Assembly (NCBI GenBank): GCA_947594425.1
Contig: CANQED010000002.1
Location: 188,364-252,363 of the forward strand
Direction of reading: 5' to 3'
DNA length: 64,000 nucleotides
DNA from: an uncultured Ruminiclostridium sp.
GTDB taxonomy: Bacteria > Bacillota > Clostridia > Oscillospirales > Ruminococcaceae
Part shown: positions 14,453 to 63,496 of the stretch, one piece after another
Position numbering within the stretch: the stretch's first letter is position 1
Layout: each line of letters starts with the position of its first letter
Notes under the pieces: generated by a model
What the model saw: the letters and a program-made list of their open reading frames with translations, nothing else
Told to the model about the DNA's origin: nothing
Databases searched by the model: none
Program-made: the position numbers and the translations under genes

Positions 14453-15682
<1,230 letters not shown>

Positions 15683-15776: not shown

Positions 15777-15792
15777 GGGATTTTATACATTA

Positions 15793-15821: not shown

Positions 15822-15859
15822 ATTTATTGAATTTTTAAAAAAATTTTTGAAAATTTCGA

Positions 15860-15888
15860 TTGACAGCGGCATAAAAGCGGACTATAAT
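15860..15888 (+). promoter_or_regulatory. Promoter of the XRE regulator gene
   Basis: TTGACA (15860-15865) and TATAAT (15883-15888) are spaced by 17 bases, with the start codon 36 bases further on. Confidence 0.8.
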
Positions 15889-15923
15889 ATATATAGAAGT
15901 TTATTTTCTGTGGGAGGGATACG

Positions 15924-40874: not shown

Positions 40875-40932
40875 ATATCAGCATGACCGCATAGGCGGCT
40901 AAGCTGTATTTAAGAAAAGAAGATTTGCCGCG

Positions 40933-41361: not shown

Positions 41362-43642
41362 CGGCGCGGCGATAGTTCTTTGCCTTGCGGCGGCGGGCGT
41401 ATGCGTGTGGGCTTGCGCTAAGAAAAAGACCCATATCCTTTCGCTCGTACTGTGTGCGGCTATTATCGGCTCGGCTGTGACGTTTGCAATTCCCGCAGGC
41501 GCGGAAGAGCCCACCGTGGGCGTAAGCGGCGTTATCCCCGACGACACCGACGACGGCTTGCCCGACACGTTCACTCTCGAAGATAATATCGAGATCGACG
41601 GCGAGAATGTAGAGGTAACTCTCGAGATATCTTTCCCGCAGCTGCCTAAGATACACGACAATTCCGAGGAGGATATACAGTACCTAAACGACGGCAAAGC
41701 GACTATACTGAGATACGATAACGGCGAGATATCCTTTATCGGCGGCAAATTTACCGACTACAAGGTAACCAACTATGAAGAGGCGACTGACGCGCTGCAG
41801 GCGGTAAATACCCTCTTAAACGGCGATGATATCTGCGTTATGGCTGTACGCGCGGATGAAGCGCCTAACGGCGACGTATATTATACCTTTGCTCAGTTGA
41901 CAGACAACGAGGCTCACCCCGGCGTACCCTGCGCAGTAGTGCCTAACGCTTTTATTAAGGTAGGTGTAGACAAGGACGGCAACACGATAAGCCTTACCTC
42001 CTCTTTAGATCCTACAATGCAAAATAAGGACGGGTATGTTGACCAAGACAGCCCCGAGATGACGGCCGTATTAAAAGATACACTTACCACCGCTCAGCAA
42101 TATGCTGAAGAACACGGCGGAAAGGTAGTGGATACCGGAGACGAGATCCTCGTTGATTTTCGCTTAAACATCAGCAACGCTGTTTGTGTAATATACTACA
42201 TAGAGCCCGTGACGGAAGACTCGGATATAGTGGGCTACACTGAGCTGTTCGTCAATATCGCCGACAATCAGGTATTCGACCATGTGGCTGTAAGCGAGAT
42301 AGACACTCAAACATGGGAGAATAACGATAACGACGTGTATTTTGACGTTGAGACCGAGGATATGGAATTTACCGACGCGCTCGGCAATAAGGTGACCCTC
42401 CCCGTCGCAAAGAACGAGAACGGCTATTACTTTATCAGCCCAGAGCGCAAGATGGTAGTCGTAGATTCATTCACCACCTTTAACACCGCGGATACTAATT
42501 TTATATTAGACCCCGTTGAGTTCGCAACGGCGGAGGATGCGCCTAAGCGTTTAGTCACCGTATTTTCAAATATGATAAAGGTCTATGACTTCTATGCCGA
42601 CAACGGCATAAGATCCCTTGACGGACGCGGAATGCCGCTGCTTATAGGCTACGGCTATTACAACGGCGTAGACAGAGACCCCGAGGGCAGGGATATGAAT
42701 AATTGCGGATACACGTCCGTAGTAAACGGCTTCGGCTGCTTTATGTTTACCGACTCGTACGACCTTAGCAACTGCCTTGACATTACCGCGCACGAATATA
42801 CTCACGGTATAAGAGTATGCACAAACTGTCATGGTCCGTATTATAATAACACCGGCGCTGTCGAGGAGTCTATCGCGGATATACTCGGCAACCTTATCGA
42901 GCTGCAATTAGACCCCACCAGCGATACCGAAAAGTGGTACATCGCCGAGGCGTCGGGAGATCCTATGCGTTCGCTCGCAGACCCGCATATGTTCGCTCAG
43001 CCCGAGTATATAGGCGATATCAACTTTGTTATGAACACAAGATATCAGACCGGAACATCACAATGCGATGACAACGGCGGCGTGCATGTAAATAACTCCA
43101 TACTGCCCTATGTCGTATATCAGATGTATGAAAACGGGCTCAGCTACGAGCAGCTTTATGACATATTCAGATACTCGCTCGACGCATATGTACCTATGTG
43201 CGAATATAAAGAGGTCGCAGAGATAACAAAGTTCGCTATGAGCAGACTTGACATCAGCGAGGAGCAAATAGTAAAGGCAGACGAGTTGTTTGACAATTCT
43301 AACCTTTACGGCGATACAAAATCTTGGGACAACTACGAGAAGCCCGAGGGTATGGTATCTATCGAGGTAAAGCTTGAAAACGCTCCGACAGACTGCCAGT
43401 GGTCCTGCGGTATACTCAAGAAGATACAAGGCAGCAAGCGCGTAGTATTCGCTACCTCCGACAAAAATGAGGTCGCTAAGTATTACAGCGAGCCCATTGA
43501 GGACGAGGACTGCACGCTCACGATATTTATGATGAAGAGTGACGGCGGAGTCTACACCTCGACCATCAACGTAGGTCCGATAACCTCCGATCTGTCTCTC
43601 AGTAAGGACTATAACGATCTGGAGTTTGAGAGACTGTATTAA
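41339..43642 (+). CDS. Second thermolysin-type (M4) metalloprotease, C-terminal and catalytic part
   Basis: The open frame (formally 41210-43642) is homologous to the first protease only from about 41339: PDTG, hydrophobic stretch, KKK, second signal-like stretch ending PAGA-EE, a propeptide-like region and an M4 domain with HEYTH, the Glu ligand in GAVEESIAD and the active-site His in NGGVHVN. Roughly 765 codons are undamaged, so selection has acted recently. Residues before 41339 in this frame are an out-of-frame reading of the E-T-E-A-P linker and should be ignored. Translation would need a frame shift at the C5 run. It has no promoter of its own and probably shares the transcript of the first gene, ending at the hairpin at 43671. 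Confidence 0.8.
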   Translation, partial: PDTGVAADGAAIVLCLAAAGVCVWACAKKKTHILSLVLCAAIIGSAVTFAIPAGAEEPTVGVSGVIPDDTDDGLPDTFTLEDNIEIDGENVEVTLEISFPQLPKIHDNSEEDIQYLNDGKATILRYDNGEISFIGGKFTDYKVTNYEEATDALQAVNTLLNGDDICVMAVRADEAPNGDVYYTFAQLTDNEAHPGVPCAVVPNAFIKVGVDKDGNTISLTSSLDPTMQNKDGYVDQDSPEMTAVLKDTLTTAQQYAEEHGGKVVDTGDEILVDFRLNISNAVCVIYYIEPVTEDSDIVGYTELFVNIADNQVFDHVAVSEIDTQTWENNDNDVYFDVETEDMEFTDALGNKVTLPVAKNENGYYFISPERKMVVVDSFTTFNTADTNFILDPVEFATAEDAPKRLVTVFSNMIKVYDFYADNGIRSLDGRGMPLLIGYGYYNGVDRDPEGRDMNNCGYTSVVNGFGCFMFTDSYDLSNCLDITAHEYTHGIRVCTNCHGPYYNNTGAVEESIADILGNLIELQLDPTSDTEKWYIAEASGDPMRSLADPHMFAQPEYIGDINFVMNTRYQTGTSQCDDNGGVHVNNSILPYVVYQMYENGLSYEQLYDIFRYSLDAYVPMCEYKEVAEITKFAMSRLDISEEQIVKADELFDNSNLYGDTKSWDNYEKPEGMVSIEVKLENAPTDCQWSCGILKKIQGSKRVVFATSDKNEVAKYYSEPIEDEDCTLTIFMMKSDGGVYTSTINVGPITSDLSLSKDYNDLEFERLY

Positions 43643-47577: not shown

Positions 47578-48867
47578 TTAAACCTCTACCTGCACTTCTA
47601 AAATCACCGTATCCTCCGCGGCAGTAAGCGAGTGAGCTATACCCTTGTCTATCGTGTATGTATCCCCCGGGAAAGCGTCGTGATTGCGGCCGTTTATCCG
47701 TATCACAGCCTTACCGCTGAGGACTGTCCATACGGTGCGGTTTGCGGTGTGGGTCTTTTCTTTTATCTCGCTGTTTTTCTTTACGGTTTTCTTTTTGGTG
47801 ACGGCTTTGTTTCCCACTTCGTCCACCGAGACATTAAGCACGGTATAGTCGCCCCACTCGCGTTCCTCATACATCGGACGAATATCCATATTCTCGACAT
47901 ATTTCTTTATAAATGAGCTTTGCTCCTTGTCCGCGACAAGTATGCCGTCGGGTCCCGCCGCGACGATCATATTATGCGCGCCCATTACTACGATAGGTAT
48001 CTCGAGCTCGTTTACTATATGGGTGTTGGTGCAGTCGTCGCTCGCTATAGCAAAGCCGTACAGAGGGTCCATGACCTCGGTGATTGTGTTCCATGTGCCG
48101 AGATCCTTCCATTCGCCGTCATATGGGATAACGGCCACGCTGTCCGCTTTTTCAAGCACGGCGTAGTCAAAGCTGTTCTTTTCAAAGGAAGAATAGCTGT
48201 TTAGGACATCCGCATAGCTTTGCGACGGGACGATTTTCCTAACTATATCAAGCATATATGACAGCTTGAAAGAAAATACTCCGCAATTCCACAGCCCGCC
48301 CATCTCGATAAATTTTTGCGCGGCAGCGGAATTGGGCTTTTCTTTAAACTGCGATACGGGAGAGGGCTCGGCGTCGGTACTCTCGGGGATTATGTAGCCG
48401 TATTTTTCGGAGGGGTATGTAGGTTTTACTCCCATAAGGACAATGTCCGCGGCGGCTGACTGTACAGCCTTGTCGAGCTTTATCAGTGTGCGAAAATATT
48501 CGCTGTCAACATACGGGTCGACGGGCAGGACGATAACGGTCTCGTCGGGGTCGCAGTGTCTTTCGTAATAGAGATACGCCGCCGCGAGCGATATCGCGGG
48601 AAAAGTGTTGCGGCGCTGAGGCTCTACGATTATCGACACCTTAGAGCCGAGCTGATTTTTTATCGCCTCGACCTGCGTCGCGCTGGTGGCGACAGAAATG
48701 TCTGCGTCGGGGACGGCGGAGGCTATCTGCTCGTACACGCGGCGGACCATCGAGTCGACCTCGCCGTTTTCGGTCTTTATCAGCTTGAGGAACTGCTTAG
48801 AGCGCACCTCGTTTGAAAGCGGCCAGAGGCGCTTGCCGGAGCCGCCGGAGAGTAAAATTATTTGCAT
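47578..48867 (-). CDS. manC: Mannose-1-phosphate guanylyltransferase
   Basis: The 429-residue protein makes GDP-mannose, the precursor for the Gmd pathway further up the cluster. The nucleotidyltransferase domain starts IILLSGGSGKRLWPLS with RSKQFLKL, and continues with PVDPYVDSEYF and FKEKPNSAAAQKF. The C-terminal 100 residues form a cupin half (WTVLSGKAVIRINGRNHDAFPGDTYTI), as in the mannose-6-phosphate isomerase type II fusion, but shorter than in full bifunctional enzymes, so isomerase activity is doubtful. It is the promoter-distal gene of the cluster. Confidence 0.93.
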   Translation of the reverse strand: MQIILLSGGSGKRLWPLSNEVRSKQFLKLIKTENGEVDSMVRRVYEQIASAVPDADISVATSATQVEAIKNQLGSKVSIIVEPQRRNTFPAISLAAAYLYYERHCDPDETVIVLPVDPYVDSEYFRTLIKLDKAVQSAAADIVLMGVKPTYPSEKYGYIIPESTDAEPSPVSQFKEKPNSAAAQKFIEMGGLWNCGVFSFKLSYMLDIVRKIVPSQSYADVLNSYSSFEKNSFDYAVLEKADSVAVIPYDGEWKDLGTWNTITEVMDPLYGFAIASDDCTNTHIVNELEIPIVVMGAHNMIVAAGPDGILVADKEQSSFIKKYVENMDIRPMYEEREWGDYTVLNVSVDEVGNKAVTKKKTVKKNSEIKEKTHTANRTVWTVLSGKAVIRINGRNHDAFPGDTYTIDKGIAHSLTAAEDTVILEVQVEV

Positions 48868-48952: not shown

Positions 48953-49831
48953 TTAATTCAACAGTTTTTCAAGACTTTGATAAATGTATTTAGCTGTTAA
49001 TTGGTTATACATATCATTTTCCTGTTTAGATCCGTATTTTCTTAATATCTCTCGATTTACGCCGACGCAGGAAATCTGAATTGGCTTGTTCTCGAATGTC
49101 TTATATATTTCATATGTTAATGTTCCCTCATAGTGCGGCTCACATAAAAGGATCTTTCCGCCGTTATAGTGATTTTTAAGCGTTTCATGGTCAAAAGGCA
49201 ACAGTGTAGTATAATATAAAATACTTACGTCTTCATTTTCACAAGTCTCAAGGACAATATCCAATGTTGTTGATACAGCTATCACTGTGGCTTTACTGCC
49301 TGCTTTGATAACTGTCGCCTTTCCGAAGCTTACCTCAACATTCGTTTTATTAACATGATCGCTCAGGCGATAATATGTCGGATGAGCATCCCGCCGTGTC
49401 TGCTCAAAAAGCTTGGTAAACTCAGGCGCTGTACCGGGAGTTATAAATTCAAAGCCTGGAATCATAGAAATAGTCCCTATATCTTCAGGACAATAGTGCG
49501 AATATCCAAGCGTAGCAAAATCATACGAGGCTCCTGTTGTGATAAAATTACCTTGTAATTTCTGATAAGCAAAATCAAGCTTCAACTGCTCCATAGCACG
49601 ATTTACTATGAAAGGAGAAATGCCGTAAATTGTGGGTATGATCCCGCCAAGTGACATGCCGGCAGCAAGGCTTACCATTCCATCCTCAAAAATTCCTATA
49701 TTCATGGCACGATCGGGGTAATCGTTCAATATATCCCTAAAAGCCCAAACACCAATGTCCACTAAAAATAAAGACGTGTCGCTTTCGTTTTTGATCATAT
49801 CGCTCACTGCTTTAATCATCGCTTTTCTCAA
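48953..49831 (-). CDS. Split transketolase, C-terminal (pyrimidine-binding) subunit
   Basis: The 292-residue protein covers the transketolase pyrimidine-binding and C-terminal domains. The Glu that activates thiamine diphosphate is in NIGIFEDGMVSLAAGMSLGG, and TYGISPF-like and STTLDIVLE segments follow. It overlaps the N-terminal subunit gene by 20 bases, so the two form one alpha2-beta2-type enzyme that transfers a two-carbon ketol unit or a related acyl anion. In this capsule context it is unlikely to serve only central metabolism. The base composition is visibly more AT-rich than in the flanking genes. Confidence 0.9.
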   Translation of the reverse strand: MRKAMIKAVSDMIKNESDTSLFLVDIGVWAFRDILNDYPDRAMNIGIFEDGMVSLAAGMSLGGIIPTIYGISPFIVNRAMEQLKLDFAYQKLQGNFITTGASYDFATLGYSHYCPEDIGTISMIPGFEFITPGTAPEFTKLFEQTRRDAHPTYYRLSDHVNKTNVEVSFGKATVIKAGSKATVIAVSTTLDIVLETCENEDVSILYYTTLLPFDHETLKNHYNGGKILLCEPHYEGTLTYEIYKTFENKPIQISCVGVNREILRKYGSKQENDMYNQLTAKYIYQSLEKLLN

Positions 49832-50621
49832 AGGTTTCTACCTCCTTTTTAAGCATTTCAAGTTCATCACTGTCCGGCGATCTGTGAAACCACGAATTGT
49901 CAGTCATAAGTGTTTGGGAACCGTATCCTCTGATTGTATGAGCAATTACTGCCTGAGGCTTTCCGGAAATTCCCCTGCATTTGTTCAATGTGCTTTTAAG
50001 GTCGTCAACATTATGACCATCTGCTTCAAATACAGCAAAGCCGAACGCCGACAGTTTATCTTTGAGCGGTGACAAATCCAGCATTTTTCCTATTGAATCA
50101 TTGTCATCAATTATAAGCGTGATATTTTCGAGCATGCGTCCTCCGGCAAACGCACACGCTTCCCACATACTTCCCTCGTTCATTTCACCGTCGCCGGCAA
50201 GCACATATATATGATTGCCGCCGTTCTTTTTGATTTTGCAGGCATAAGCAAGACCAACCGCCATTGGGAAACCGTGTCCTAAGGATCCGGCAGAATTTTC
50301 TATTCCGCCATCCGGGAATTTTGTCCTGTCCAACTGCATGCTGAATCTGCTGCCGAATTTGCAGAATGTATTAAGCTCCTCGTTTAAGAAAAGCCCCTTT
50401 TCTTCAAGCACAGCAGAAAGCGCAAGGCTCGACTGCCCTTTGCTGAGAATAAAGTAATCACGATTAGGTGACTTTGCATTTTCCACAGACCAGTTCATTA
50501 CGCCGTTATAAAGCGTATAGAGTATCTCAATTGAGGAAAAGCAGCTTTGAAGGTTGCCGTCTTGACCCAAATGGGATATTTCAAGAAGACGGGTGCGAAT
50601 CGATTTAATTATATTGTTCAT
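49812..50621 (-). CDS. Split transketolase, N-terminal (thiamine diphosphate-binding) subunit
   Basis: The 269-residue protein has the thiamine diphosphate motif GDGEMNEGSMWEAC ending IDDNDSIG, and the substrate-side SAGSLGHGFPMAVG. Such split transketolases occur in many bacteria, often in secondary or surface-sugar clusters. It lies directly after the alcohol dehydrogenase gene (16-base gap). Together with the aldolase and dehydrogenase it makes a four-gene block, 48953-52823, of distinct AT-rich composition inside the sugar cluster. Confidence 0.9.
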   Translation of the reverse strand: MNNIIKSIRTRLLEISHLGQDGNLQSCFSSIEILYTLYNGVMNWSVENAKSPNRDYFILSKGQSSLALSAVLEEKGLFLNEELNTFCKFGSRFSMQLDRTKFPDGGIENSAGSLGHGFPMAVGLAYACKIKKNGGNHIYVLAGDGEMNEGSMWEACAFAGGRMLENITLIIDDNDSIGKMLDLSPLKDKLSAFGFAVFEADGHNVDDLKSTLNKCRGISGKPQAVIAHTIRGYGSQTLMTDNSWFHRSPDSDELEMLKKEVETFEKSDD

Positions 50622-50637
50622 TTCATGCCTCTCTGAC

Positions 50638-51804
50638 TTACATACACATTTTCAATATATTTATTATATCTTGCGGCACAAGTTCTTTTATTCCGCCTAT
50701 TGATCCTCCCCAGCATACATTTTCAGCAATTTCTTCAAACGCATCCTCGGTAATACCTATTTCGCTGAGCTTAGAGTTCAAGCCAAGCATTTCATACAGA
50801 AATTCTTCTAATTTTTTTATTGTCAATTCAGCACACTCTATATTGTTCGCAGAATCAATATCGAATACTGCTCTGCCGAACTGTGCAAATAAACATGCAT
50901 TTTCACTATTCAGGACATATTTCATCCATTTCGGAAGAATTATTGCCATGCCAAGACCGTGGTTAACATCATAATATGCAGATATTTCATGCTCGATTAT
51001 ATGGCATACTGCTGGTTGGCGAATACCGTTTTTTAAAATTCCATTAAGAGCCCATGTGGACGCCCACATAAGATTTGCCCTTGCAGTGTAATTGTTGGGC
51101 TCCCTTAAAGCAATATAGCCGTATCTTATTATGATTTTACTAATTGATTCCATAACCACGCAAAGCATATCCATTCTGTCGCCCGGCATAAAATATGCTG
51201 TATCTAAAACGTGAGAAAGCATATCCGCACATCCACAAGCGGTTTGGAAAGTTGATACAGAAAATGTAAGAACAGGATCCATAAAAGATACTTTAGGATA
51301 TAATAAATCATTAGAATAGCCACGTTTTATTTTTAGGCTTTCATTACTTATAACACAACTGTTGTTCATTTCAGTTCCGGTTCCAGCAACAGTTACAACT
51401 GTAATTAAAGGGATCGCTTCGTGTGGCGGTGTTTTTTTAGTTATTATATCCCAACATCCACAATCTTCGTTTGCAGTTACCGAAATAGCTTTAGCGCAAT
51501 CTATAACAGAACCGCCCCCTACAGCTAAAATAACATCAATGCCATTTTCTTTACAGATCTTCGCGCCATAATCCACCTTAGTATGTCTCGGATTAGACGC
51601 TACGCCGTTCAATTCAAATATTTCTGCGTTTTGACGTTTTAGACTGTCAATTATTTCATCATATAATCCTATTTTTTTTATTGACTCTTCACCGTAAACA
51701 AGGAGAATTTTATTACCATAAGATGATACAATTGACGAAAGCTGTTTTCGGCTTTCGGAACCAAATAATATTTTCGTTGGTATATTAAGTACAAAATTAT
51801 ACAT
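50638..51804 (-). CDS. Iron-containing alcohol dehydrogenase
   Basis: The 388-residue protein belongs to the group-III dehydrogenases. It begins NIPTKILFGSE and shows the nucleotide loop GGGSVIDCAKAIS, VAGTGTEMNNSCV, and metal ligands in CGCADMLSHVLD and HIIEHEISAYYDVNHGLGMAI. It resembles the BdhA/YqhD aldehyde reductases, so it probably reduces a small or sugar-derived aldehyde. It lies 2 bases after the aldolase gene, suggesting that it handles the aldolase product or protects the substrate of the transketolase. Confidence 0.9.
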   Translation of the reverse strand: MYNFVLNIPTKILFGSESRKQLSSIVSSYGNKILLVYGEESIKKIGLYDEIIDSLKRQNAEIFELNGVASNPRHTKVDYGAKICKENGIDVILAVGGGSVIDCAKAISVTANEDCGCWDIITKKTPPHEAIPLITVVTVAGTGTEMNNSCVISNESLKIKRGYSNDLLYPKVSFMDPVLTFSVSTFQTACGCADMLSHVLDTAYFMPGDRMDMLCVVMESISKIIIRYGYIALREPNNYTARANLMWASTWALNGILKNGIRQPAVCHIIEHEISAYYDVNHGLGMAIILPKWMKYVLNSENACLFAQFGRAVFDIDSANNIECAELTIKKLEEFLYEMLGLNSKLSEIGITEDAFEEIAENVCWGGSIGGIKELVPQDIINILKMCM

Positions 51805-51806
51805 AT

Positions 51807-52823
51807 TTACACTCCATCCCCTTTATCTTCAATTATTTTATCTGCCACATCTTTAAACAACGTGTATCTTTTATCATCTGGTATTTTTTCAAGAATAGAT
51901 TTTATTTGATGAAAATCAGTTATGCCTTTTCTTGACAAATACCAAACATAAGCGGGATTAGTTTCATATTTTGAAACTAAAAATTGTTCCGGAAGATAGC
52001 CCCAATCAAATTGCTTTCTAAGATCGGCAAACCAATCGGTATATAATCTCCAAACTACATCTTCATCATATTTTTCGCCGCTTTTATTAAGATAGTGCAT
52101 TAAAATTTCCGTATGCGCATTTCCCGCTCCTCTGCCCATACCATAAATAGAACCGTCAACAATGATGTTTCTGTCTAACGCTTCGCTAATAAAAGTAATG
52201 GCGTTAGCGTCAGCCATTTGTAAATTATTGTGAGCATGTATCCCGAAAAGGATCTCTTTGTCCAATGTATCATCTACTACATGATAGAGTTTTTTAATAT
52301 TCTCCGGGTAAAGCGACCCAAAGCTGTCAACTATGTAAAACGCATACGGTCTTATCTTGTTTATCTCCTTAACGAGTGAAACCAGTTCACTGTCAGAATA
52401 CTGGAAGGTTGCCATTGTCTGTGCAAACACCTTATAGCCCTTTTCGATAAGGCTGCTCATGTGTTCCAGCGCTTCACGGACGTCCGCTTTAAAAAACGCA
52501 TATCTAATTGCGTCTACACTTTTTTCAACGTTATAATCGCAAACAGTCATCTTTTTATATTCTGTTCCCGTCATCATTACGGTAAACTTAGATTTACAGT
52601 CTTTCAGCTTATTCGGAACAGGAATTTCTTCAAGGCTTCTAAACTTTGTCTTAAAATGGTCGGCATTGTGAGAGCCCATGATCCCAAGCTCTATAAAATC
52701 AACGTTTGCCAACTGTAAATCTTCCGACACGGCATTATAAATATCACGAGAAAATTCCCAGTCGTTTATGTATCCGCCGTCTCGCAGCGTACAATCAAGA
52801 AGATAAATTCTGCGATCGCTCAT
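51807..52823 (-). CDS. DRE-TIM-type aldolase (HMGL-like family)
   Basis: The 338-residue protein opens with YLLDCTLRDGGYINDWEF, the divalent-metal and base motif of 4-hydroxy-2-oxovalerate aldolase, HMG-CoA lyase and related enzymes. FGIHAHNNLQMADANA supplies the second metal-binding part. It may split or join a 2-oxo acid and an aldehyde. Homologues are known from surface-polysaccharide clusters, where the substrate is not settled. Its ATG overlaps the stop of the preceding reductase gene by 4 bases, so it is coupled to GDP-sugar synthesis. Confidence 0.87.
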   Translation of the reverse strand: MSDRRIYLLDCTLRDGGYINDWEFSRDIYNAVSEDLQLANVDFIELGIMGSHNADHFKTKFRSLEEIPVPNKLKDCKSKFTVMMTGTEYKKMTVCDYNVEKSVDAIRYAFFKADVREALEHMSSLIEKGYKVFAQTMATFQYSDSELVSLVKEINKIRPYAFYIVDSFGSLYPENIKKLYHVVDDTLDKEILFGIHAHNNLQMADANAITFISEALDRNIIVDGSIYGMGRGAGNAHTEILMHYLNKSGEKYDEDVVWRLYTDWFADLRKQFDWGYLPEQFLVSKYETNPAYVWYLSRKGITDFHQIKSILEKIPDDKRYTLFKDVADKIIEDKGDGV

Positions 52824-53779
52824 ATATTCTCCTTCTGTGAATTATCATTTTTACGCACCATCTCCAAATACCACCCAAACAGCTTTTCAACGCCTGTTTT
52901 CATGGTATACTGAGGCTGCCAGCCTAAATTATGCAGCTTTTCGGAATTGATAAAGCTTCTCATTTTTCCGTCGGGCTTTGTGGGATCGGTGACAATTTCG
53001 CCCTCATAGCCCACGACCTCGCTTATCAGCCTCGCAAGGTCGAGGATAGATATTTCCGTTCCCGTTCCGACATTGATGTGTTCATAATCGGAGTAGCTGT
53101 CCATAAGGTAGACGCAGGCGCCTGCAAGATCGTCCACGTATATAAATTCTCTCAGCGCCTTTCCGCTGCCCCATAGCTCGATTTTGGGCGTTTTGCTAAG
53201 CTTGGCGAGATAATATTTTTGTATCAGGGCGGGAATTACGTGGGAATTTTGCGGGTCAAAGCTGTCGCCTTCTCCGTAGCAGTTTGAGGGTACAGCCGCA
53301 ATAAAGTCATCGCCGTATTCTTTCCTGAAATATCCGCAAAGCCGCACTCCGAAATTCTTTGCAAGAGCGTAAGCCTCGTTGGTGACTTCCGGGTTCCCGT
53401 CAAGAAGGCTTTCTTCCTTTATCGGCATCGCCGCATTGTTCGGATAGCAGCAGGCGCTTCCGAGATACAAAAGCTTTTTTACCCCGCTGTTATGAGCGGC
53501 TTGCAGGACGTTCGCAACAATATACATATTAGTAAGCCCGAACTCGACCGGATAGGTGGAGTTTGCCTTTATCCCGCCTACCTTTGCGGCTGCTACAAAA
53601 ACATAGTCCGGCTTCTCCGCGGTGAAAAACGCCTCCGTCGCCGCTTTATCGGTGAGGTCAAGCTCGCTGTGAGGCTTACAGATGATGTTTTCGTACCCCT
53701 GCCTTTTCAGCTCTCTTACTATGGCAGAGCCTACCATACCGGTATGACCTGCGACATAGATCTTGGAATACTTGTTCAT
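52820..53779 (-). CDS. fcl: GDP-L-fucose synthase
   Basis: The 319-residue short-chain dehydrogenase/epimerase begins KIYVAGHTGMVGSAIV. It keeps the catalytic Ser-Tyr-Lys (GSACCYP, NEAYALAK) and the Cys and His epimerase residues (SACCYP and NSHVIPALI). It converts GDP-4-keto-6-deoxymannose to GDP-L-fucose. NCYGEGDSFDPQNSHV and the length are typical of Fcl, so of the two reductases in the cluster this one is the better Fcl candidate. Confidence 0.88.
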   Translation of the reverse strand: MNKYSKIYVAGHTGMVGSAIVRELKRQGYENIICKPHSELDLTDKAATEAFFTAEKPDYVFVAAAKVGGIKANSTYPVEFGLTNMYIVANVLQAAHNSGVKKLLYLGSACCYPNNAAMPIKEESLLDGNPEVTNEAYALAKNFGVRLCGYFRKEYGDDFIAAVPSNCYGEGDSFDPQNSHVIPALIQKYYLAKLSKTPKIELWGSGKALREFIYVDDLAGACVYLMDSYSDYEHINVGTGTEISILDLARLISEVVGYEGEIVTDPTKPDGKMRSFINSEKLHNLGWQPQYTMKTGVEKLFGWYLEMVRKNDNSQKENI

Positions 53780-53825
53780 TGCTTACACCTCCATACAAAT
53801 AGAGGCGTAAGAATAAACGATACAG

Positions 53826-54779
53826 TTAAGCTGTACCCCCCCCGCGTTTGTCAACAATATTGTTCAAAAACCACTCGTATGTAAGCTTTAGTCCCTCGTC
53901 AAGAGTTACTTTCGGCTTCCAGCCAAGCGAGTTGATTTTTGAAGAATTCATCAATCTTGCCATTGTTCCCTCCGGTTTAGAGTTGTCGGTCGTTATCTCG
54001 CCGTCATAGCTCACTGTATTCTTTATCTTTTGCGCTATCTCAAGTACGGAATAGTCGCTTCCGGATCCTATGTTGTAATATTCTCCACCCATACCGTTAT
54101 CTAACAAAAACAGGCAAGCGTCCGCCAAATCATCGGCAAATAACAACTCCCTGCGGGCGTTGCCACTGCCCCATATCGTCACTTCTTTATTGCCGTTTAT
54201 CTTCGCTTCGTAAAAGCGTCTTATAATTCCCGGGACAATATGCGAACGCAATACGTCGAAATTATCATTATATCCGTATAAATTGCAGGGAATTACGCTC
54301 ATATATTCTGCGCTGTATTCTTTGTGAAGATATTCGCACGCTTTAATTCCACAGATCTTAGCCAAAGAATATCCCTCGTGCGAATCTTCCGGCTTGCCTG
54401 TCAGCATAGCCTCTTCGCTTATTGGCTGCTCCGCTAATTCGGGATACACGCAGGCTGAACCTATGAAGATCAGCTTTTTTACCTTTTGCATTAAAGAAGC
54501 CGAAAATATATTATTCTGTATCTTGAGATTATCCATCAGAAATTCAGCGGGAGATTTTATGTTAGCCCCTATCCCGCCTACCTTTGCGGCTGCCAGAAAA
54601 ACGTATTCCGGTTTTTCACGGTCGAAAAACTCTTCAACGTCAGACTGCCTTGTAAGGTCTAATTCCTCAAAAGTCTTGCCTATTATGTTCGTGTACCCAC
54701 GAGCGGTCAAATTACGAACAAGAGCAGAACCTACCATTCCCGTGTGTCCTGCAACGTAGATCTTGGAATTCTTTTCCAT
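53826..54779 (-). CDS. GDP-fucose-synthase-like epimerase/reductase (ColC candidate)
   Basis: The 317-residue protein is a paralogue of the neighbouring Fcl: KIYVAGHTGMVGSALV, GSACVYPELAE, EGYSLAK, RSHIVPGII. It lies 23 bases after the ColD-like dehydratase gene. By analogy to the E. coli colitose pathway, ColC is an Fcl-like enzyme that epimerises and reduces GDP-4-keto-3,6-dideoxymannose. It could equally be a second Fcl, or act on a branched product. The choice rests on position, not on a diagnostic residue. Confidence 0.8.
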   Translation of the reverse strand: MEKNSKIYVAGHTGMVGSALVRNLTARGYTNIIGKTFEELDLTRQSDVEEFFDREKPEYVFLAAAKVGGIGANIKSPAEFLMDNLKIQNNIFSASLMQKVKKLIFIGSACVYPELAEQPISEEAMLTGKPEDSHEGYSLAKICGIKACEYLHKEYSAEYMSVIPCNLYGYNDNFDVLRSHIVPGIIRRFYEAKINGNKEVTIWGSGNARRELLFADDLADACLFLLDNGMGGEYYNIGSGSDYSVLEIAQKIKNTVSYDGEITTDNSKPEGTMARLMNSSKINSLGWKPKVTLDEGLKLTYEWFLNNIVDKRGGGTA

Positions 54780-54802
54780 ACCTTTTCTCCTTGTTTTTTT
54801 GT

Positions 54803-55963
54803 TTACAGTACGGACCTGAGCGTTTTCACAAGGTGGTCTATCTCAGCAAAATTGTTTTTGCTGTGGTTGCCGACGAAAAATCCGTTATCGTGGATATCAT
54901 CCGCCGCGGCAAGCTCACCGCTTACGGTATGGTCCATATATTCAATGACCTTGTTTCGTGTAAAGTTGCCCGCAACTATGGGGCGGACCTCTATCTCGTT
55001 TTCCGCAAGCTTCTTTACGACCTCGTCGCGCCTGCCGAGATTTTTGCCCTCAAGGATAATGGCAAAGCCGAACCATGAACTGCTCTCGGTTTCCTTTTGA
55101 GTGCGCAGGTCGGGAATATCCTGCATTTTCTCCTTGAAATAGCGGGCGTTCTCTCTGCGCTGTGCGATTATGCCGTCCATCTTTTTAAGCTGCTGCGTGC
55201 CTGCCGCTCCCTCTACTTCAAGCGGGCGGAGGTTAAATCCGGGTACGATAAAGTTAAAGCTCTCGTAAAACGGGTTTTCGCTCTTGGCGTATATTTTGCT
55301 GTCCTTAGGCAGATTTCTTGTCCAGCCGTGAGCCCTTATGCAAAGCATATAATGGTACAGCTCCTCGTCATCCGTGACCACTACCCCGCCCTCCATTGTG
55401 CATAAGTGGTGGGAATAGAATGTCGAATACGTCCCCACAAGCCCGAACGTTCCGGCTTTTTTGCCGTGGTATTCCGCACCGAGGGATTCGCAGTTGTCTT
55501 CCATTATGATGATGTCTTTGTCCTTGCATATCTGCTCTATCGGGTCAAAGTCGTTGGGATTGCCTAAAAGATTAACAAGGCAGACAAGCTTTGTGTTTTC
55601 GGTTATCGCCGACTTAAGCTTTTGTACGTCGATATTAAGGGTATCCTTATCGATGTCCGCAAAGCGCAGCTTTAATCCCATCTGATACAGCGGGAAATAT
55701 GTGGTGCTCCACGAAACGGCGGGCACGATAACCTCGTCGCCCTTTTTCAGCCTGCCCGAATACACAAGCCCCGCGACCGCAAGCAGATTAGCCGCCGATC
55801 CCGAGCTTACCATAAGCGCGTATTTCACGCCGAATTTGTCAGCAAAGGCTTTTTCAAACTCCGCCACGCGCTCGCCCATTGAAAATTTTCCCGATGAGAG
55901 AACACGCTGTATGGCGTCAAATTCTTTGCTGTCCCATGTGTCGTCGCTCAATCTGTACTTCAC
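54803..55963 (-). CDS. GDP-4-keto-6-deoxymannose 3-dehydratase-like protein (ColD/RfbH type)
   Basis: The 386-residue DegT/DnrJ-fold protein has no PLP-binding lysine at the usual place. In TYSTFYSHHLCTMEGG the position is held by H185-H186, as in ColD and RfbH, where a His takes over and the enzyme removes the 3-hydroxyl instead of transaminating. VSSGSAANLLA and EDNCESLGAEYHGKKAG are standard for the fold. It directly follows gmd with no gap, so its substrate should be GDP-4-keto-6-deoxymannose and its product GDP-4-keto-3,6-dideoxymannose. No iron-sulfur motif of the RfbH type is seen, which favours ColD. Confidence 0.85.
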   Translation of the reverse strand: MKYRLSDDTWDSKEFDAIQRVLSSGKFSMGERVAEFEKAFADKFGVKYALMVSSGSAANLLAVAGLVYSGRLKKGDEVIVPAVSWSTTYFPLYQMGLKLRFADIDKDTLNIDVQKLKSAITENTKLVCLVNLLGNPNDFDPIEQICKDKDIIIMEDNCESLGAEYHGKKAGTFGLVGTYSTFYSHHLCTMEGGVVVTDDEELYHYMLCIRAHGWTRNLPKDSKIYAKSENPFYESFNFIVPGFNLRPLEVEGAAGTQQLKKMDGIIAQRRENARYFKEKMQDIPDLRTQKETESSSWFGFAIILEGKNLGRRDEVVKKLAENEIEVRPIVAGNFTRNKVIEYMDHTVSGELAAADDIHDNGFFVGNHSKNNFAEIDHLVKTLRSVL

Positions 55964-56995
55964 TTATTTTCCCTCCCGAACGCTCTTTATATCATTCTCC
56001 GTCATCAGCCTTACAAGCTCCTCGAACGAAGTCTTTGTGGGGTTCCAGCCGAGGGTCGCTTTTGCTTTGGCGGGATTTCCCAGCAGGGTAACAACATCAG
56101 TGGGACGGAAAAATTCGGGAGATACCTCCACCAGTACTTTGCCTGTCTTTTTATCTATGCCCTTTTCGTCAACACCCTCGCCCTGCCATTCAAGCTCTAT
56201 TCCCGCTATCTTGAACGACAGCGTGCAAAACTCGCGGACGGAGTGCTGCTCGCCGGTCGCGATAACGAAATCGTCGGGCTCGTTATGCTGCAATATCAGC
56301 CACATACACTCGACATAATCCTTGGCGTAGCCCCAGTCGCGCAAAGCGTCAAGGTTGCCGAGATACAGCTTGTCCTGCTTTCCCGCGGCGATATTCGCGG
56401 CGGCAAGAGTTATTTTTCGGGTGACAAAGGTTTCGCCCCTGCGCTCGGATTCGTGATTGAACAGTATGCCGTTAGAGGCAAATATCCCGTACGCCTCGCG
56501 ATAATTGCGCACTATCCAGAAAGCGTACTGCTTTGCGGCGGCGTAGGGAGAATAGGGGTAGAACGGCGTAGTCTCCGACTGAGGTATCTCCTGCACCTTG
56601 CCGAACAATTCGGAGGTCGACGCCTGATAAAACTTGCAGGTCTTTTCGAGCCCCGCCATCCTTATCGCCTCAAGGCACCTCAAAGTTCCCACCGCGTCGG
56701 CGTCCGCCGTGTACTCGGGGACTTCAAACGATACCTTGACATGGCTTTGCGCAGCCAGATTGTACAGCTCGTCCGGGCGCACCTCGGAAATGACCTTAAG
56801 CAGGCTTATCGAATCAGTCATATCCGCATAGTGGATATGAAAATGCTCATTGCTCATAAGGTGCTCTATGCGCGCCCTGCGGTCTACCGACGAGCGCCGC
56901 ACTATGCCGTGTACCTCGTAACCCTTTTCGAGCAGAAATTCCGCAAGATACGAACCGTCTTGCCCGGTGATACCGGTTATCAGTGATGTTTTCAT
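55964..56995 (-). CDS. gmd: GDP-mannose 4,6-dehydratase
   Basis: The 343-residue enzyme has [23 protein letters not shown], the [18 protein letters not shown]-binding segment, [13 protein letters not shown], the catalytic [16 protein letters not shown] and [13 protein letters not shown], and [17 protein letters not shown]. It makes GDP-4-keto-6-deoxymannose, the branch point for both fucose and 3,6-dideoxyhexoses. The stop is followed at once by the ColD-like gene. Confidence 0.95.
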
Positions 56996-57044: not shown

Positions 57045-59696
57045 TTAATGTGATTTAGAAATTTGTTTATGACGATTTACATTATAATTTCTGGAAAATT
57101 CTCCTACATCATATTTGTTTTTAAAAAAACTTGCAAATAGTTGTTTTCTTTGACTATTTGAACATATGAATACTTCTAAATTTCTATTATATAAAGCAGC
57201 AATAACCGGAAAATAACTTTCTCCCGCTATCATAATTTTACCGCAAGACATTAATTGTATATCTCTAAAACTTTCGTCGCCCTTATTACCTTCAACAAAT
57301 ACAACTTCACATTCTCCGACTTTATTCAATCCGAGTTTTTCCTTATTGGCTATGCACCAACGAATATCATCGGAAAAAACAAAAAATTTTTTATTTTTAT
57401 AATCAGAAATCGACATAACCTTTTCTATGGCTTCATCGTAATATTCATTATCCACATCCCAACCTAATGATACATAATCTCCTTTTCTAATATGAACAAC
57501 GACGGCATCGCATGAGTTCATTTGTTTTGATAGTTCAATGTGTTGTTGCTGTATAAAAGGCGGGAATTCGATAAAATCATAAAGTTCAAATTGAAAAATC
57601 TTTTTCATATTTTCGATTCTTATTAAAGAATTAAAGTATGTTTGATTAAGATTATTCAAAACAAACTTTCTTAAATTATTACCTGACAGGAAACATGCAC
57701 AGTGGATCCCACATGAAGAATATCGTTTATAATCATTTGTCATAAATATATAATCATCAGATATTTTATAAAACAAATTTAGAAAAATTTTTCTTTTATC
57801 AAGCGTTTTTAATCTTATCGACAGTTTATTGGTCAACAAGTTCATCTTGACCTTTGAAAACCTATTAACTTCTAATCCATTGAAATCTGTGCATACTGTG
57901 TCATCATATAAAATTGGTTTGCCAGATAAAGAAGATATAATTTGCCCCAATACTAAATAGCAGAATTGATCTCCTAATCCGTTACATATTTTAACAACTA
58001 CTAATTCTGGATTGAAAAGTTCGCTAAAATCAACAACAGAAATGTAACTTTGTGTCATTATCGGCTTGTTATCGCATATGGAGAATACAAACCTCTCATT
58101 TTCAAGCAGCGAGGGATAATCAACATAATTAAGGCTGTCGAGAAAGTCACGTTCTGTTTCAAACTTAAGAACGGTCGGCTTATTGCCGTCGCCCTTTCTC
58201 GCCTTTTCAACATAATAATCATAGCTGTATGTCAATGCGTCGGCATCCTCTATCGAGCAGATATACCCGTCGGAGATGACTTTATTGTGATCAAACTCTT
58301 TGCACGCATTAAAGTCAAATTTCTTTATCGGCGTGTCGGAATTAGCATTTAATACAAGCCAGCAGTTATTTTCGAGGGGCAGATACAAATCGCCGTTGTC
58401 TTCCGTAAATTCTTTTACGGAGATATACGGGTATTCTTTAAGAAAGGCGATATTTTTCTCTTTAAATCCCCTTGCAGAATTAACGGGTATACAATCGCTG
58501 CTGTTTAAAATATCAGACACGATCTTTTTATATTCGGCGGCATTCTCGCTGATATTGCACAGTAAATACACCGCGATAATATCGTTAAGGTCAAGCTTAA
58601 AGTATCGGGTGTAGAGCTCGATAAGCTCGGTATCTGCAGCAAATTTTTTATTCTGCACGTCGACCGCGTATTCCGCGAGGCGATACTTGGTCTTAACGTC
58701 AAGGAACCGCCTCAGCTTTATTATATTGTCGAAGAATTCGCAGGCGGCGGGCTGAGTTTTGCTAAGCTTATCTACGGTGAGCATATTGTCGTCGATGTAC
58801 TTCAACTGCTCAGCATTTTGTTCAATTACATCTTTTGACAGCCTTGAAAGCAAAACCTTGGAAAAATCACTTGTATATCCATAAAAATGTGATTTATGTG
58901 TATCAATGTTTTTATTGACAATAATATCATAGATAGCGTCAGCTATTGCCGCGGATAATTTACTGCCCATTTGAATATACGGAAAAAGACAAGGAACATA
59001 TCTTGGAGGAATATTATTGAAGTGATCATCGACAACAAGGCAGTGCGTCTTTTCAATGAAATAATTATCCATCTGCTCCATCGCACCGATAAATTGATCG
59101 GATAATGTGCTATCATATGCTTTAATATCTTTCTCTTCCATATAAAATCGAGAGCAATTTGAACGGATAAAAATAATATGCTCAGGATCATATTCGTTCA
59201 GTATGACATCAATAAATCTGTCATAATAATACTTCCAGTTAAATGAGCCCGAAAAAGGAAATGTTCTTCTTGTACATCCACCTTCGCTGTTTTTTATTGC
59301 ATTTACAATCTCAGCTGTTGTATATTCGGAATAAACAGTATCCGCTTTTTCCATAACCGGTAGCAGTATGCAGGAGTTCATATACACCAGATACTCTGTT
59401 GTGTTCTGAAAACGTACTTCCACTCCATTTGGCTGAACATTAAAGTTATCAGAAAAATTGTTTGGGTCGTGTGATAACACTTTTTTTAAGTTTTTCCTTA
59501 TATTAAGCAGTTCATGAGGTTTCAAATCAGGCATGTCGGAATATTTCTGATATGTCTTATCAAATGTGCCGGTCATCGCCAAAGGGCTGCAGTTATTGAT
59601 TATATTTTCTGTAAAGATACCCATAGTATCTAATACTCTTGTTACCTGCTCAAGGTAACTTCCTACAATTTGAATCCTACTTTTGTTATAACTCAT
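57045..59696 (-). CDS. Large fusion protein with C-terminal GT11 alpha-1,2-fucosyltransferase domain
   Basis: The 883-residue protein has no signal peptide or membrane helix. The C-terminal part (about 565-870) matches glycosyltransferase family 11: [16 protein letters not shown], the donor motif [10 protein letters not shown] (about 733), [11 protein letters not shown] and [18 protein letters not shown]. It should transfer fucose, or a similar GDP-deoxyhexose, onto the growing glycan. The N-terminal part (about 1-540) is not recognised; it has [14 protein letters not shown] and [17 protein letters not shown] blocks which faintly resemble SGNH-like domains of polysaccharide clusters. The two ends are strongly AT-rich, but the middle (nt 58140-58800) is like the rest of the window, so the gene may be a composite. 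Confidence 0.87.
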
Positions 59697-59759: not shown

Positions 59760-60962
59760 TTAATTACACTCAAAAATATCTCTTGTATAGACCTTATCTT
59801 TAGCAGCCTTAAGCTGTTCATCTACCCTATTCGCCGCTACTACATCAGCCATACCTACGAACTCATCAAAATCGTTTACGACCTTGTAACCGTTAAAGGT
59901 GTCCGCTTTCAGCGTGGGTTCATATATTATCACGGTCGCGCCTTTGTCCTTAAGTCGCTGCATTACGCCCTGTATCGCGCTTTGGCGGAAGTTGTCGGAG
60001 CCGGCTTTCATTATAAGGCGGTATATTCCGACCATGACATGCTTTTCGGGATAGCCGCCTTTTTCAAGAATGCGCTTTGCGACGACACTCTTACGGGTGT
60101 GGTTTGCCTTGACTATCGCCTCTATGATGTTCTGCGGCACGTCCTTATAATTTGCAAGCAACTGCTTTGTGTCCTTAGGCAGGCAATACCCTCCATAGCC
60201 GAAAGACGGGTTGTTATAATGGCTGCCTATTCGCGGGTCGAGGCATACGCCCTCGATGATCTGTCCGGCATTGAGGCCGTTCAGTTCGGCGTATGTATCA
60301 AGCTCGTTAAAGTAGCTCACGCGGAGGGCAAGGTATGTATTCGCGAACAGCTTTACCGCCTCGGCCTCGGTGGGGTCTAAGAAAAGCGTGGGTATCTCCC
60401 GCTTTATCGCTCCCTGCTGCAAAAGCTTGGCAAACTTATGCGCGGCGGCGGTTATCTTCTCACTGTCGTGCGGCACTCCGACTATTATCCTTGAGGGGTA
60501 GAGGTTATCGTATAGCGCTTTCCCCTCGCGCAAAAATTCGGGGCTAAAAATAATATTTTCGGTATGGTACTTTTTGCGCATCTCCATGGTAAAGCCTACG
60601 GGCACGGTGGATTTTATCACCATAACAGCCGAGGGGTTTATATCTAAAACCTGCTCTATCACTAATTCCACCGACGAGGTGTCAAAATAATTCTGCTCCT
60701 CGTCATAATTAGTCGGGGTGGAAATCACCACCAGCTCCGACTGCCTATAGGCGGTTTTATAATCAAGCGTCGCGGTAAGGTCGAGCGGCTTGTCGGCAAG
60801 GTACTCCTCGAGCTCCTTATCCGCTATCGGCGAGCGGCGGGAGTTTATCATCTCCACCTTTTCGGGGATTATGTCCACCGCAAAGACCTTGTTGTGCTGA
60901 GCTAAGATCACGGCGTTTGAAAGTCCGACATAGCCTGTCCCGGTCACAGTTATCACAGACAT
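59760..60962 (-). CDS. ugd: UDP-glucose 6-dehydrogenase
   Basis: The 400-residue protein has [42 protein letters not shown] and [14 protein letters not shown]. The catalytic Cys is in [14 protein letters not shown]. It oxidises UDP-glucose to UDP-glucuronate, implying an acidic polymer. The C-terminal NAD-dependent half is present. It lies between the GT11 and GT2 genes and shares their transcript. Confidence 0.94.
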
Positions 60963-60979: not shown

Positions 60980-63496
60980 TTACTTATTTTTCTTAAACAG
61001 CCCTCTTATCTTGCGCGGGAGCCAGGTGATGGCAAGACCGATCTTGTACGAAAACGAAGCGCGGGTGAGCAATAGTTGGGTCTTATAATCTTCGCTGTCG
61101 CGCATCGATTTTTTAAGCTCATCAAAGCCTTTCTTAATTAAGACCTCGTTTTGCTTTTGGATAATGTCCTTATCGGCAAATTTGATCTCCAGCATATTCT
61201 TACGCTTTATGTCTTCTATTTCCTTTACTTTTTTCGTTATCTGCCCATTAAGGTTCTTAATTTTTGCGCTCAGCTCTTTTACCTGAGCAGTCATTTTTTC
61301 TGAATTCTCCCTATGATACGTCAGCTTATCAAACATATACTCTTCATATGTCATAAGCCGAATATTCACGCATTCTTTATATGCCCTGGTATTGCTCTTT
61401 GATATTTCCGAAATGTCGAAAGTGTCAAGTCCAACCTTTTCAAGGCCTTCATCGTGAAGATAGCGGTATAATTGTGCAAATGCATTCGCGTCGGTTAAAG
61501 AATTGAGGTTATACAGCGAGCTTCTTACCACCAGATTATGAAAGCTTTTTATAAAAAGCTCACCGTTTTCGCTTGATTTTATCTCATTCTGAAGCTTTAG
61601 CAAAGCGGCAAAGAAATCTGTAGGGTACAAAAAATTTGTCGCTTGACAGTTAGACGAACCTCCCATACGATAGTTTACAAGTTCTTTATTTACGACCGTT
61701 ATCCTGTGTGCTTTTATCAATGCAGTATTTACAAAAGCCATATCATTTGTTCGGTGTATTTCTTGGAATGATAGCTTTTCCCTTTCGACAAAGTGCCTCA
61801 TAAACAGCTTATTCCACGCCCACGTCTGAAAAGTTTCAAAAATCGTTTCGTTCATTTCCTCCGGGGTAAAAGAGTCAATGTTAGGCATATTAGATACGAC
61901 AAAAGAATTAGAGCTTGAGGTAGTCTTGCCGGTATCTTCGTGGTAGATCTTTACTTTGAAAACACCTATATCCGCCGAGCGTTTCTTGCACTTGTCGTAT
62001 ATGCTTTCAAGCATTTCGGGCTCAAAGAAATCGTCAGAATCAAGAAAAGACAGATATTCACCTTTAGCAATGGCTAAGCCCTTATTTCTTGCAGCACCTG
62101 CGCCGAGATTATCCTGATAAAGCACCTTTACACGATCGTCATTGGCTTCATATTCTTTAAGTATTTCGGCGCTGCTGTCAGTCGAGCCGTCGTCAACGCA
62201 TATGACCTCTATCTCTTTCATTGTCTGGTTCAAAACGCTGTCAAGGCATTGACGTAGATATTTTTCGGTATTGTAAACGGGAATTATCACAGAAACCTTA
62301 ATACTGTCGGCGCAGTGCTGTTCATAATAATCTTCAGGGGCAAAAGCGACCCATTCAAATTCATCTGCCTCATACGGCATAAATGCGTCTTTGACATATT
62401 CTCCATTTTCGATAGATTTTCTGAAATCCTCAGAGATATTGATAAGGTACTCCTTTTGATCATCTGCACCTATCCTGCGATAATTATTCATATAATTATG
62501 GAATTTTTTCAAAGTATAAATTCCTATAAATTTTGTAAAAAGCTCAGGCTCTGAACTTAATATGTCGTGTATATAATTGTATTCGTGATTGATGTTGTAA
62601 ACTTTCTTTTTATTGTAAACCGAAGAATTAGGATTGTCTCTTCTGTTCATATAATACGGTTTGTCAACTACATATATCCTGTCGGCTCTTATCATAGTCT
62701 GAAACCAAAATCCGTTATCCTGAAAAGACGCGCCGGGGGTTTCCTGATGTCTGATACAGTTATCCACCAAAAAATCACGTCTGTATATACCGCTCCAAGT
62801 ATTCATTATAAATCTAAACGAAAACGGTTCATCCAACGGACACATAACTTTGTTGTAGTATTCTTTCTTTTTTGCAACATCATTATATGTACATTTCAAA
62901 CTGCCGTCGTTTTCTCTTAAGAAACGGTTGAAATCCGCTTTGACCCAGTCCACGCCGTTTTCCTCAGCGGTCTTGTACAGCTCCTCATACATATTAAGCT
63001 CTACAAAGTCGTCGCTTTCAACAATGCCTATGTATTCGCCTCTTGCCATATCCATGCCGATATTCATGGTGTGGCCGTAACCCGCGTTGTCCTTATCTAT
63101 TACTTTTACTCTGTCATCCTTTTCGGCGTATTCCTTAAGTATATCAAGGCAGCCGTCTGTCGAGCCGTCGTTTACGCAGATTATCTCTATTTCTCGCAGG
63201 GTCTGATTTACACAGCTGTCAAGGCATTCGCGAAGATACTGCTCGACGTTGCAGACAGGTACGACTATAGACACCTTTATGGGGCTGTCGGGCTGCTTGT
63301 CAAAGTTTATGAGCTGATGTATCGTAACCTTTTCGCGTGTCAGCCTGACAGCGCTCTCATATTCGTCCGATACGGCAGAAAGCGCTTTTGCGCCGTTATT
63401 GATACTGTTCTGTTCTTCCGCCTGAGTGTAGATCTCGGTTACAACGCCGCTTTGCGCCTCGGTATGATTTCTTTTCTTTCTTTCGTTTTTCGCCAT
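60980..63496 (-). CDS. Double-domain GT2 glycosyltransferase
   Basis: The 838-residue cytoplasmic protein contains two GT-A domains in tandem. The first (about 73-290) shows [20 protein letters not shown] and a VESDDF DxD-type motif. The second (about 397-620) shows [20 protein letters not shown] and FLDSDDF. A coiled coil follows (about 735-815), then a basic tail ([17 protein letters not shown]). The tail is shared with the next glycosyltransferase, so it is likely a membrane-binding or assembly element. It should add two sugars of the repeat unit. The ends and middle of the gene differ in AT content. Confidence 0.92.

Follow-up and report, generated by a model that had tools for sequence, protein, structure and literature searches.

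A DRE-TIM aldolase and a remodelled split transketolase as a candidate carbon-branching module beside GDP-deoxysugar genes in an uncultured Ruminiclostridium sp.

The window analysed here, a stretch of 64,000 nucleotides on contig CANQED010000002.1 of an uncultured Ruminiclostridium sp., displays a minus-strand polysaccharide cluster in which genes for a GDP-linked deoxysugar are directly followed by a compact block encoding (i) a DRE-TIM aldolase-like protein, (ii) an iron-containing alcohol dehydrogenase (Fe-ADH), and (iii) the two subunits of a split transketolase, TK-N and TK-C. That aldolase, Fe-ADH and split transketolase together constitute a carbon-branching module for the GDP-linked deoxysugar is the reading we favour and, in our assessment, an evenly balanced proposition. 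The narrower version, in which the transketolase is fed by the dedicated aldolase and adds a carbon chain to the ketone of the GDP-deoxysugar for a surface glycan, is put forward more tentatively.

The transcription order is Gmd, ColD, Fcl a, Fcl b, aldolase, Fe-ADH, TK-N, TK-C, and a ManC-type gene. The block itself comprises the aldolase (51807-52823; Pfam HMGL-like, 79 bits), the proposed maker of a hydroxy-keto acid donor; the Fe-ADH (50638-51804; Pfam Fe-ADH, 164 bits; 288 bits to 7w9x), a proposed carbonyl reductase; TK-N with the thiamine diphosphate (ThDP)/Mg domain (49812-50621; Pfam Transketolase_N, 90 bits); and TK-C with the pyrimidine domain (48953-49831; Pfam Transket_pyr, 47 bits). 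Fcl b and the aldolase overlap by 4 bases, the aldolase and Fe-ADH are separated by 2 bases and Fe-ADH and TK-N by 16 bases, and TK-N overlaps TK-C by 20 bases. A first-pass annotation of this DNA had described the same gene set and its tight coupling, and the coordinates and family scores confirm both, with every gene on the minus strand. The TTG start of TK-C is plausible, with GGAGG just upstream and an (L/M)R(K/R) start common to its relatives. Between 49 and 53 kb, all four 1-kb bins have a guanine-plus-cytosine content of 35-41%, whereas the nine neighbouring bins (44-49 and 53-57 kb) range from 44 to 56%; values are low again beyond the block, at 28-40% for 57-60 kb. A lone local oddity was set aside, and the block is regarded as more than a chance arrangement, because the same gene set recurs in other genomes.

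The block-type transketolase preserves the cofactor machinery and departs from its ordinary relatives at two active-site His and an Arg. The GDG motif for ThDP is kept in TK-N, and the Glu of GIxE and the His of YSH in TK-C, each in 10/10 rows. Three substitutions distinguish the block type: (i) the ordinary SGH reads DGN in TK-N, in all nine rows covering the site; (ii) the ordinary SKGH reads SKGQ in TK-N (10/10); and (iii) the Arg of LGR is replaced in TK-C, with SD or TD in all ten rows and SD in the window. The comparison C subunits comprised ten picked from 29 loci (L068-L096) together with the second copy of the window's own genome; one row, HK_L089, aligned as an N subunit and was dropped, and the Arg is present in nine of the ten usable rows, L071 having Thr. 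Both His are kept in the second transketolase pairs of L009, L037, L040, and L127 and in the second copy of the own genome. Studies of the E. coli and yeast transketolases assign to the His of SGH and SKGH and to the Arg of LGR the binding of ketose hydroxyls and phosphate. Because the block enzyme is without these residues kept by ordinary relatives, a plain ketol donor appears doubtful. Two assignments were tried and set aside: a plain housekeeping transketolase, the other split transketolase of the own genome being 34% identical and reading SGH, SKGH, and FGR, and a pair of the PDH-E1 type, E1_dh scoring 18.8 bits against a cut-off of 22.

A scan with the aldolase over one genome per species returned 59 loci (L005-L063). 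The closest eight are 60-84% identical to the window protein, L062 over only 44 matching residues, and all are accompanied by a GDP-type Gmd; the window aldolase and those of L005-L011 form one clade (support 100/100). The complete order from Gmd to aldolase, Fe-ADH, TK-N, TK-C, and ManC is displayed by L008, L009, and L010, with L009 adding a second transketolase pair before Fe-ADH. The contig of L007 stops after Fe-ADH; a different contig from that genome (L114) starts inside TK-N and continues with TK-C and ManC; the contig of L006 is cut inside Fe-ADH, and its Gmd lies in two frames at the contig edge. Searches started from the transketolase disclose a rare enzyme: (i) TK-N at E ≤ 1e-60 matches 2/394 genomes of the order, namely the window's own and G273, identical with G791 and showing the gene order of L010; (ii) TK-C at E ≤ 1e-20 matches 45/398 genomes of the phylum, with only the own copy above 101 bits; (iii) TK-C of L009 at E ≤ 1e-50 matches 3/397 genomes in the family of G790 (G790 itself, G809, and G990); and (iv) TK-C of L037 at E ≤ 1e-50 matches 4/192 in the order of G794 (G794 itself, G795, G1303, and G1342).

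The block-type transketolase, recognised by DGN/SKGQ, is found in ten genomes (G000, G788, G789, G790, G791, G809, G794, G795, G1303, and G1342), six with GDP-type and four with CDP-type clusters. All ten contain the aldolase and a sugar 4,6-dehydratase; aldolase and transketolase share a contig in nine, the join in G788 being deduced from two contig ends; and a His-type DegT 3-dehydratase lies in the cluster in eight. The first-pass annotation had named a block occurring mostly apart from deoxysugar genes as evidence that would count against it, and the ten genomes display the opposite. The count is biased, with the window given and six genomes (G788-G791, G794, and G795) first reached through the aldolase; a freer test is offered by the genomes found from the transketolase (G273, G809, G1303, and G1342), where the aldolase is present in 4/4, or in 4/5 if G990 is counted. 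Even the divergent copy in L125 (G809), with an aldolase 39% identical, displays Gmd, a His-type DegT, Fcl, Fe-ADH, aldolase, TK-N, TK-C, and ManC. The CDP clusters L037, L040, L127, and L128 combine the same transketolase and aldolase with RfbF-G-H. L128 has an ALS-family gene with all three TPP_enzyme domains (14358-16085) at the position occupied in its sister clusters L037, L040, and L127 by a second transketolase pair, which suggests that an ALS-family enzyme and a transketolase can stand in for each other.

The partnership of the aldolase with ThDP enzymes extends to ALS-family enzymes resembling YerE, the carboligase to which the first-pass annotation had likened the system. Genes were called ALS-family at 300 bits or more to the L022 copy, distant ALS-type genes scoring 189-239. 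Such a gene occurs in 29/59 aldolase loci and within 1.2 kb of the aldolase in 26, a block-type transketolase occurs in 5/59, and some ThDP partner, including that of L062, in 35/59. The own genome, taken as the single background, has three TPP_enzyme_N matches that pass the Pfam threshold across its 2.60 Mb, or about 0.02 expected per 20 kb; all three lie outside the window, and one directly adjoins an aldolase paralog (L100). Among the 59 loci, RfbF is present in 14, RfbG in 12, a 3-dehydratase (RfbH, ColD, or a third DegT kind) in 19, and a YerF-like reductase in 17. The reverse search, with the ALS of L022 against 299 genomes in the family of G790, gave 67 places in 61 genomes at E ≤ 1e-130; loci were available for 30 of these places, almost all of the top-scoring ones among them, and 21 of the 30 have the aldolase within flanks of about 1.5 kb. 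YerE-like enzymes are thus found beside relatives of the window aldolase, in favour of the likeness drawn in the first pass. In the ALS tree the aldolase adjoins 18 of the 19 rows outside one 11-row group (support 95/89) against 3/11 inside it, where RfbH directly adjoins the ThDP gene in L157, L158, L159, and L164; label shuffles gave as few changes in 1/500, and 12 of 29 inner branches are well supported. The distribution suggests that one YerE-like group depends on an aldolase-made donor and the other mostly does not. The closest solved entry to the ALS of L022 is 8rph (403 bits), which we take to be the YerE-like enzyme JanthE.

The two groups agree with a donor difference described in PMC12247030, according to which YerE prefers pyruvate and ErwE uses 4-hydroxy-2-oxo acids, not pyruvate, as donors for CDP-4-keto-3,6-dideoxyglucose. 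The window shares with YerE/ErwE a ThDP enzyme, here a proposed carboligase, for a 4-keto-3,6-dideoxy sugar and an aldolase whose relatives adjoin such ALS-family genes; in contrast to those systems as described, it displays GDP-sugar genes, with Gmd and ColD for a GDP version of the acceptor, and a split transketolase in place of a one-chain ALS-family carboligase (TPP_enzyme N/M/C) acting on a CDP sugar, which its cluster does not contain. A second likeness is with miharamycin and amipurimycin synthesis, where, according to PMC12247030, split transketolases are proposed to add to keto sugars; that review mentions 13 such putative transketolases from a survey, all from Streptomycetes and none characterised in vitro. 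Those enzymes are proposed to move hydroxyacetyl groups in antibiotic pathways, whereas the window's polysaccharide cluster is of Clostridia type and combines an aldolase with GDP-sugar genes. The branch of caryophyllose is a 1,3,4,5-tetrahydroxyhexyl chain (PMC5706390), showing, as we read it, the 2'-deoxy pattern expected from a pyruvate aldol donor; passages of PMC5706390 and PMC12395582 gave no identification as an aldolase for MMAR_2331, which the former links with making or transferring caryophyllose. Among the titles and abstract openings listed by searches of open-licence papers, none pointed to an aldolase-transketolase pair with GDP sugars.

The window aldolase shares the DRE-TIM fold family and the RDG and HxH motifs with the 4-hydroxy-2-oxovalerate aldolases DmpG/BphI, HxH being kept in 62/62 rows of the family. 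It differs from them in scoring below the NCBIfam cut-offs for 4-hydroxy-2-oxovalerate aldolase (103 against 229 and 95 against 286 bits) and in matching most closely the functionally unassigned structure 3dxi, a 'putative aldolase' (108 bits), ahead of 1nvm, a 4-hydroxy-2-oxovalerate aldolase (58 bits). Within the family, L037 (10004-13165), L040 (10004-13165), and L128 (11132-14341) encode the aldolase as one portion of a larger protein of 1054-1070 residues, with a family-2 glycosyltransferase domain in the C-terminal part of the L037 protein. Other members of 530-550 residues, such as L022:9965-11599, comprise about 200 extra C-terminal residues, a region without Pfam match in the L002 copy, and several loci show a HAD-like gene between the aldolase and the ThDP gene.

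The acceptor is predicted from the genes preceding the block. Gmd, a GDP-mannose 4,6-dehydratase (55964-56995), scores 543 bits against TIGR01472, above the cut-off of 415. The following GDP-4-keto-6-deoxymannose 3-dehydratase (54803-55963; 475 bits to WbdK/ColD 2gms) keeps the SHH motif aligned with 2gms, its His sitting where 3b8x reads Asn and 2r0t reads Lys, and is best described as a true ColD member with His replacing the Lys that holds pyridoxal phosphate. Fcl a, an Fcl/ColC-like epimerase-reductase (53826-54779), and the Fcl-like Fcl b (52820-53779) both stay below the cut-off of 500 bits of the Fcl model NF047922 (404 and 416 bits), and the ManC-type mannose-1-phosphate guanylyltransferase (47578-48867; NTP_transferase and Cupin_2; GMP_PMI 188 bits, below the equivalog cut-off of 373) follows the block. 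The set resembles the GDP-colitose pathway (Gmd, ColD, and ColC) in having Gmd and a ColD with the His-type active site kept. Colitose synthesis, an established pathway, is not known to need an aldolase, transketolase, or Fe-ADH. In the relatives, Fcl directly precedes the aldolase in L007, L008, L009, and L011, and is exchanged for an RmlC-like gene in L005, L006, and L010; this exchange suggests that what matters may be epimerisation and not reduction at C4. The smallest set, that of L010, consists of Gmd, an RmlC-like gene, a cupin gene, aldolase, Fe-ADH, TK-N, and TK-C, and includes neither Fcl nor ColD.

In the GDP clusters with a full block, the aldolase is 77-80%, TK-C 79-84%, and TK-N 74-80% identical to the window proteins, against 47% for ManC and 55-57% for Fcl. 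The closeness of these three proteins, taken with the lower guanine-plus-cytosine content, would fit movement of the block between clusters.

Three things are observed, namely the gene content, the active-site residues, and the repeated occurrence of the aldolase together with a ThDP enzyme and genes for 4-keto-deoxysugars; from these we infer a chemistry with its donor, acceptor, order of steps, and product. Gmd would make GDP-4-keto-6-deoxymannose, from which ColD, in the window cluster, would remove the C3 hydroxyl, and an Fcl- or RmlC-type enzyme may alter the stereochemistry. The DRE-TIM aldolase would join pyruvate and an aldehyde into a 4-hydroxy-2-oxo acid, which the remodelled transketolase would decarboxylate on ThDP, adding the acyl anion to the C4 ketone. 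The addition would give a tertiary alcohol bearing a carbon chain, and Fe-ADH would then reduce a chain carbonyl, or make or remove the aldehyde. The first-pass interpretation is partly supported by these comparisons, its product staying a prediction from sequence. The GDP-3,6-dideoxy acceptor is backed by Gmd and ColD in the window, but 3-deoxygenation does not seem obligatory (L009 and L010), and the aldolase-transketolase pair also occurs in CDP-sugar clusters; the idea of branching by the transketolase is retained, but its ketol unit becomes doubtful; and of the two roles offered for the aldolase, preparing the branch by making the donor gains and finishing it loses likelihood.

Several observations weigh against the proposal that the block branches a GDP-deoxysugar. 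The strongest is that Fcl, present in most GDP clusters, could reduce the very ketone needed: where it is active at C4, no ketone would be left for a branch. The GDP clusters L005 and L011 comprise Gmd, aldolase, and ManC with no transketolase there. A search of their genomes at E ≤ 1e-30 found no block-type transketolase either, and even the best ALS matches are distant (207 and 238 bits, 31-32%); neither a block-type transketolase nor a close ALS match was found in the genome of L006, whose contig ends within the block. No ThDP partner was found in 24/59 aldolase loci within the stretch examined, some stretches being short, and just 15/29 ALS-type loci have a gene for RfbF, RfbG, or any 3-dehydratase there. 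The clusters of L009 and L010 contain no His-type DegT 3-dehydratase, departing from the GDP-colitose pathway in having no ColD-type gene. The genome G990 displays a more distant split transketolase (L126:5667-7323; 42% to that of L009) beside DegT genes, with SKGH kept and no aldolase match in the genome; for both reasons it was placed outside the block family, and it may reflect a different sugar-related use of such an enzyme. The window aldolase has Tyr at the position of the RDGSH His of 1nvm, as do 51/62 rows of the family, with His in 4/62. The His after RDGx is the catalytic-type residue of 4-hydroxy-2-oxovalerate aldolases, and the protein is therefore a putative pyruvate aldolase. Fe-ADH, at 67-71% identity, is no better conserved than Gmd (68-73% in L005, L007-L011, and L062). 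The roles of the substituted transketolase residues are carried over from the E. coli and yeast enzymes, and the context genomes are partly metagenome-assembled, several with short contigs. Finally, three aldolase paralogs of the own genome adjoin cytidylyltransferase (CTP_transf_3) genes (L098:1935-4940, L099:4514-7551, and L100:6699-10589), that of L100 also adjoining a HAD gene and a TPP_enzyme_N gene in two overlapping frames (8313-8843 and 7250-8380).

These paralogs bear on a different account, in which the block makes a separate small unit (for instance an acyl group, a polyol, or a 3-deoxy-ulosonic acid) that enters the same polysaccharide without being linked through carbon to the GDP sugar. 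The clusters L005 and L011, with an aldolase and no ThDP partner, agree with it, as do an NTP_transferase gene upstream of Gmd in L010 and the swapped cassette of L062, where the aldolase match stops after residue 48 and ThDP-enzyme halves and KdsA-like, RraA-like, and KdsC-like genes follow between Fcl and ManC (L062:6316-10950), which may provide a 3-deoxy-ulosonate donor by another route. We nevertheless rate this account as unlikely: matches and inspection by eye, which did not cover every small open reading frame, disclosed no second nucleotidyltransferase between Gmd and ManC in the window, L008, L009, L010, or L125, a 4,6-dehydratase accompanies the block in all ten genomes, and the Fe-ADH of the block is the only recognised reductase between Gmd and ManC of L010. 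Transfer of an ordinary two-carbon ketol onto the 4-keto sugar, the model of the first pass, with the aldolase acting later or unrelated, has its precedent in the proposals for miharamycin and amipurimycin (PMC12247030). It is judged quite improbable in view of the aldolase accompanying the block-type transketolase in all ten genomes, the four found from the transketolase alone included, and of the absence of the two His and the Arg, whose contacts with ketose and phosphate are taken from other transketolases.

Alternatively, the C4 ketone itself might be the aldolase's acceptor for pyruvate, and the resulting pyruvyl branch would then be trimmed or extended by transketolase and reductase; shewanellose reportedly carries a comparable pyruvyl branch. 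An aldolase standing without ThDP partner in L005 and L011, and a family departing from 4-hydroxy-2-oxovalerate aldolases at the catalytic-type His, speak for this route, which is nonetheless very improbable: the strong pairing of the family with YerE-like enzymes is more simply explained as donor supply, and ErwE needs such donors (PMC12247030). Gmd, ColD, and the Fcl pair could suffice for the ordinary products GDP-colitose and GDP-fucose, leaving aldolase, reductase, and transketolase as passengers with a general metabolic role; the true ColD, the two Fcl-like genes, and a family-11 glycosyltransferase domain encoded in the operon are what one would expect from such a cluster. This is the least probable account, given the rarity of the block in the order, its reappearance in clusters of similar type in distant genomes (among them the CDP-type clusters and the one with a 39%-identical aldolase), and the stronger conservation of its aldolase and transketolase relative to the neighbouring ManC and Fcl.

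Upstream of Gmd the operon comprises, in transcription order and on the same strand, (i) a glycosyltransferase-like gene assigned by eye (60980-63496), (ii) a gene of the UDP-glucose/GDP-mannose dehydrogenase family (59760-60962), and (iii) a gene for a large protein with a C-terminal family-11 (fucosyl-type) glycosyltransferase domain (57045-59696; Pfam Glyco_transf_11, 46 bits, best stretch residues 670-855). Elsewhere in the window, positions 38139-43642 contain a tandem pair of M4 (thermolysin-like) peptidase genes; the second begins in a different frame (40933-41361) from its remainder (41210-43642), with the change of frame spanning a PETEA-type repeat. Positions 7396-14396 show matches to argininosuccinate lyase, semialdehyde dehydrogenase, class-III aminotransferase, and carbamoyltransferase, resembling an arginine synthesis operon.

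If the branching proposal is true, the block would provide a GDP-linked C-branched sugar, a ketone-accepting transketolase, and another type of ThDP carboligase that has come to partner this aldolase family. Ketone-accepting transketolases have been proposed without experimental proof (PMC12247030), and the block offers a compact gene set, with relatives up to 84% identical, on which they can be tested. More broadly, the two-way pairing of the DRE-TIM aldolase family with YerE-like enzymes suggests a source of the functionalised keto-acid donors for long-branched sugars.

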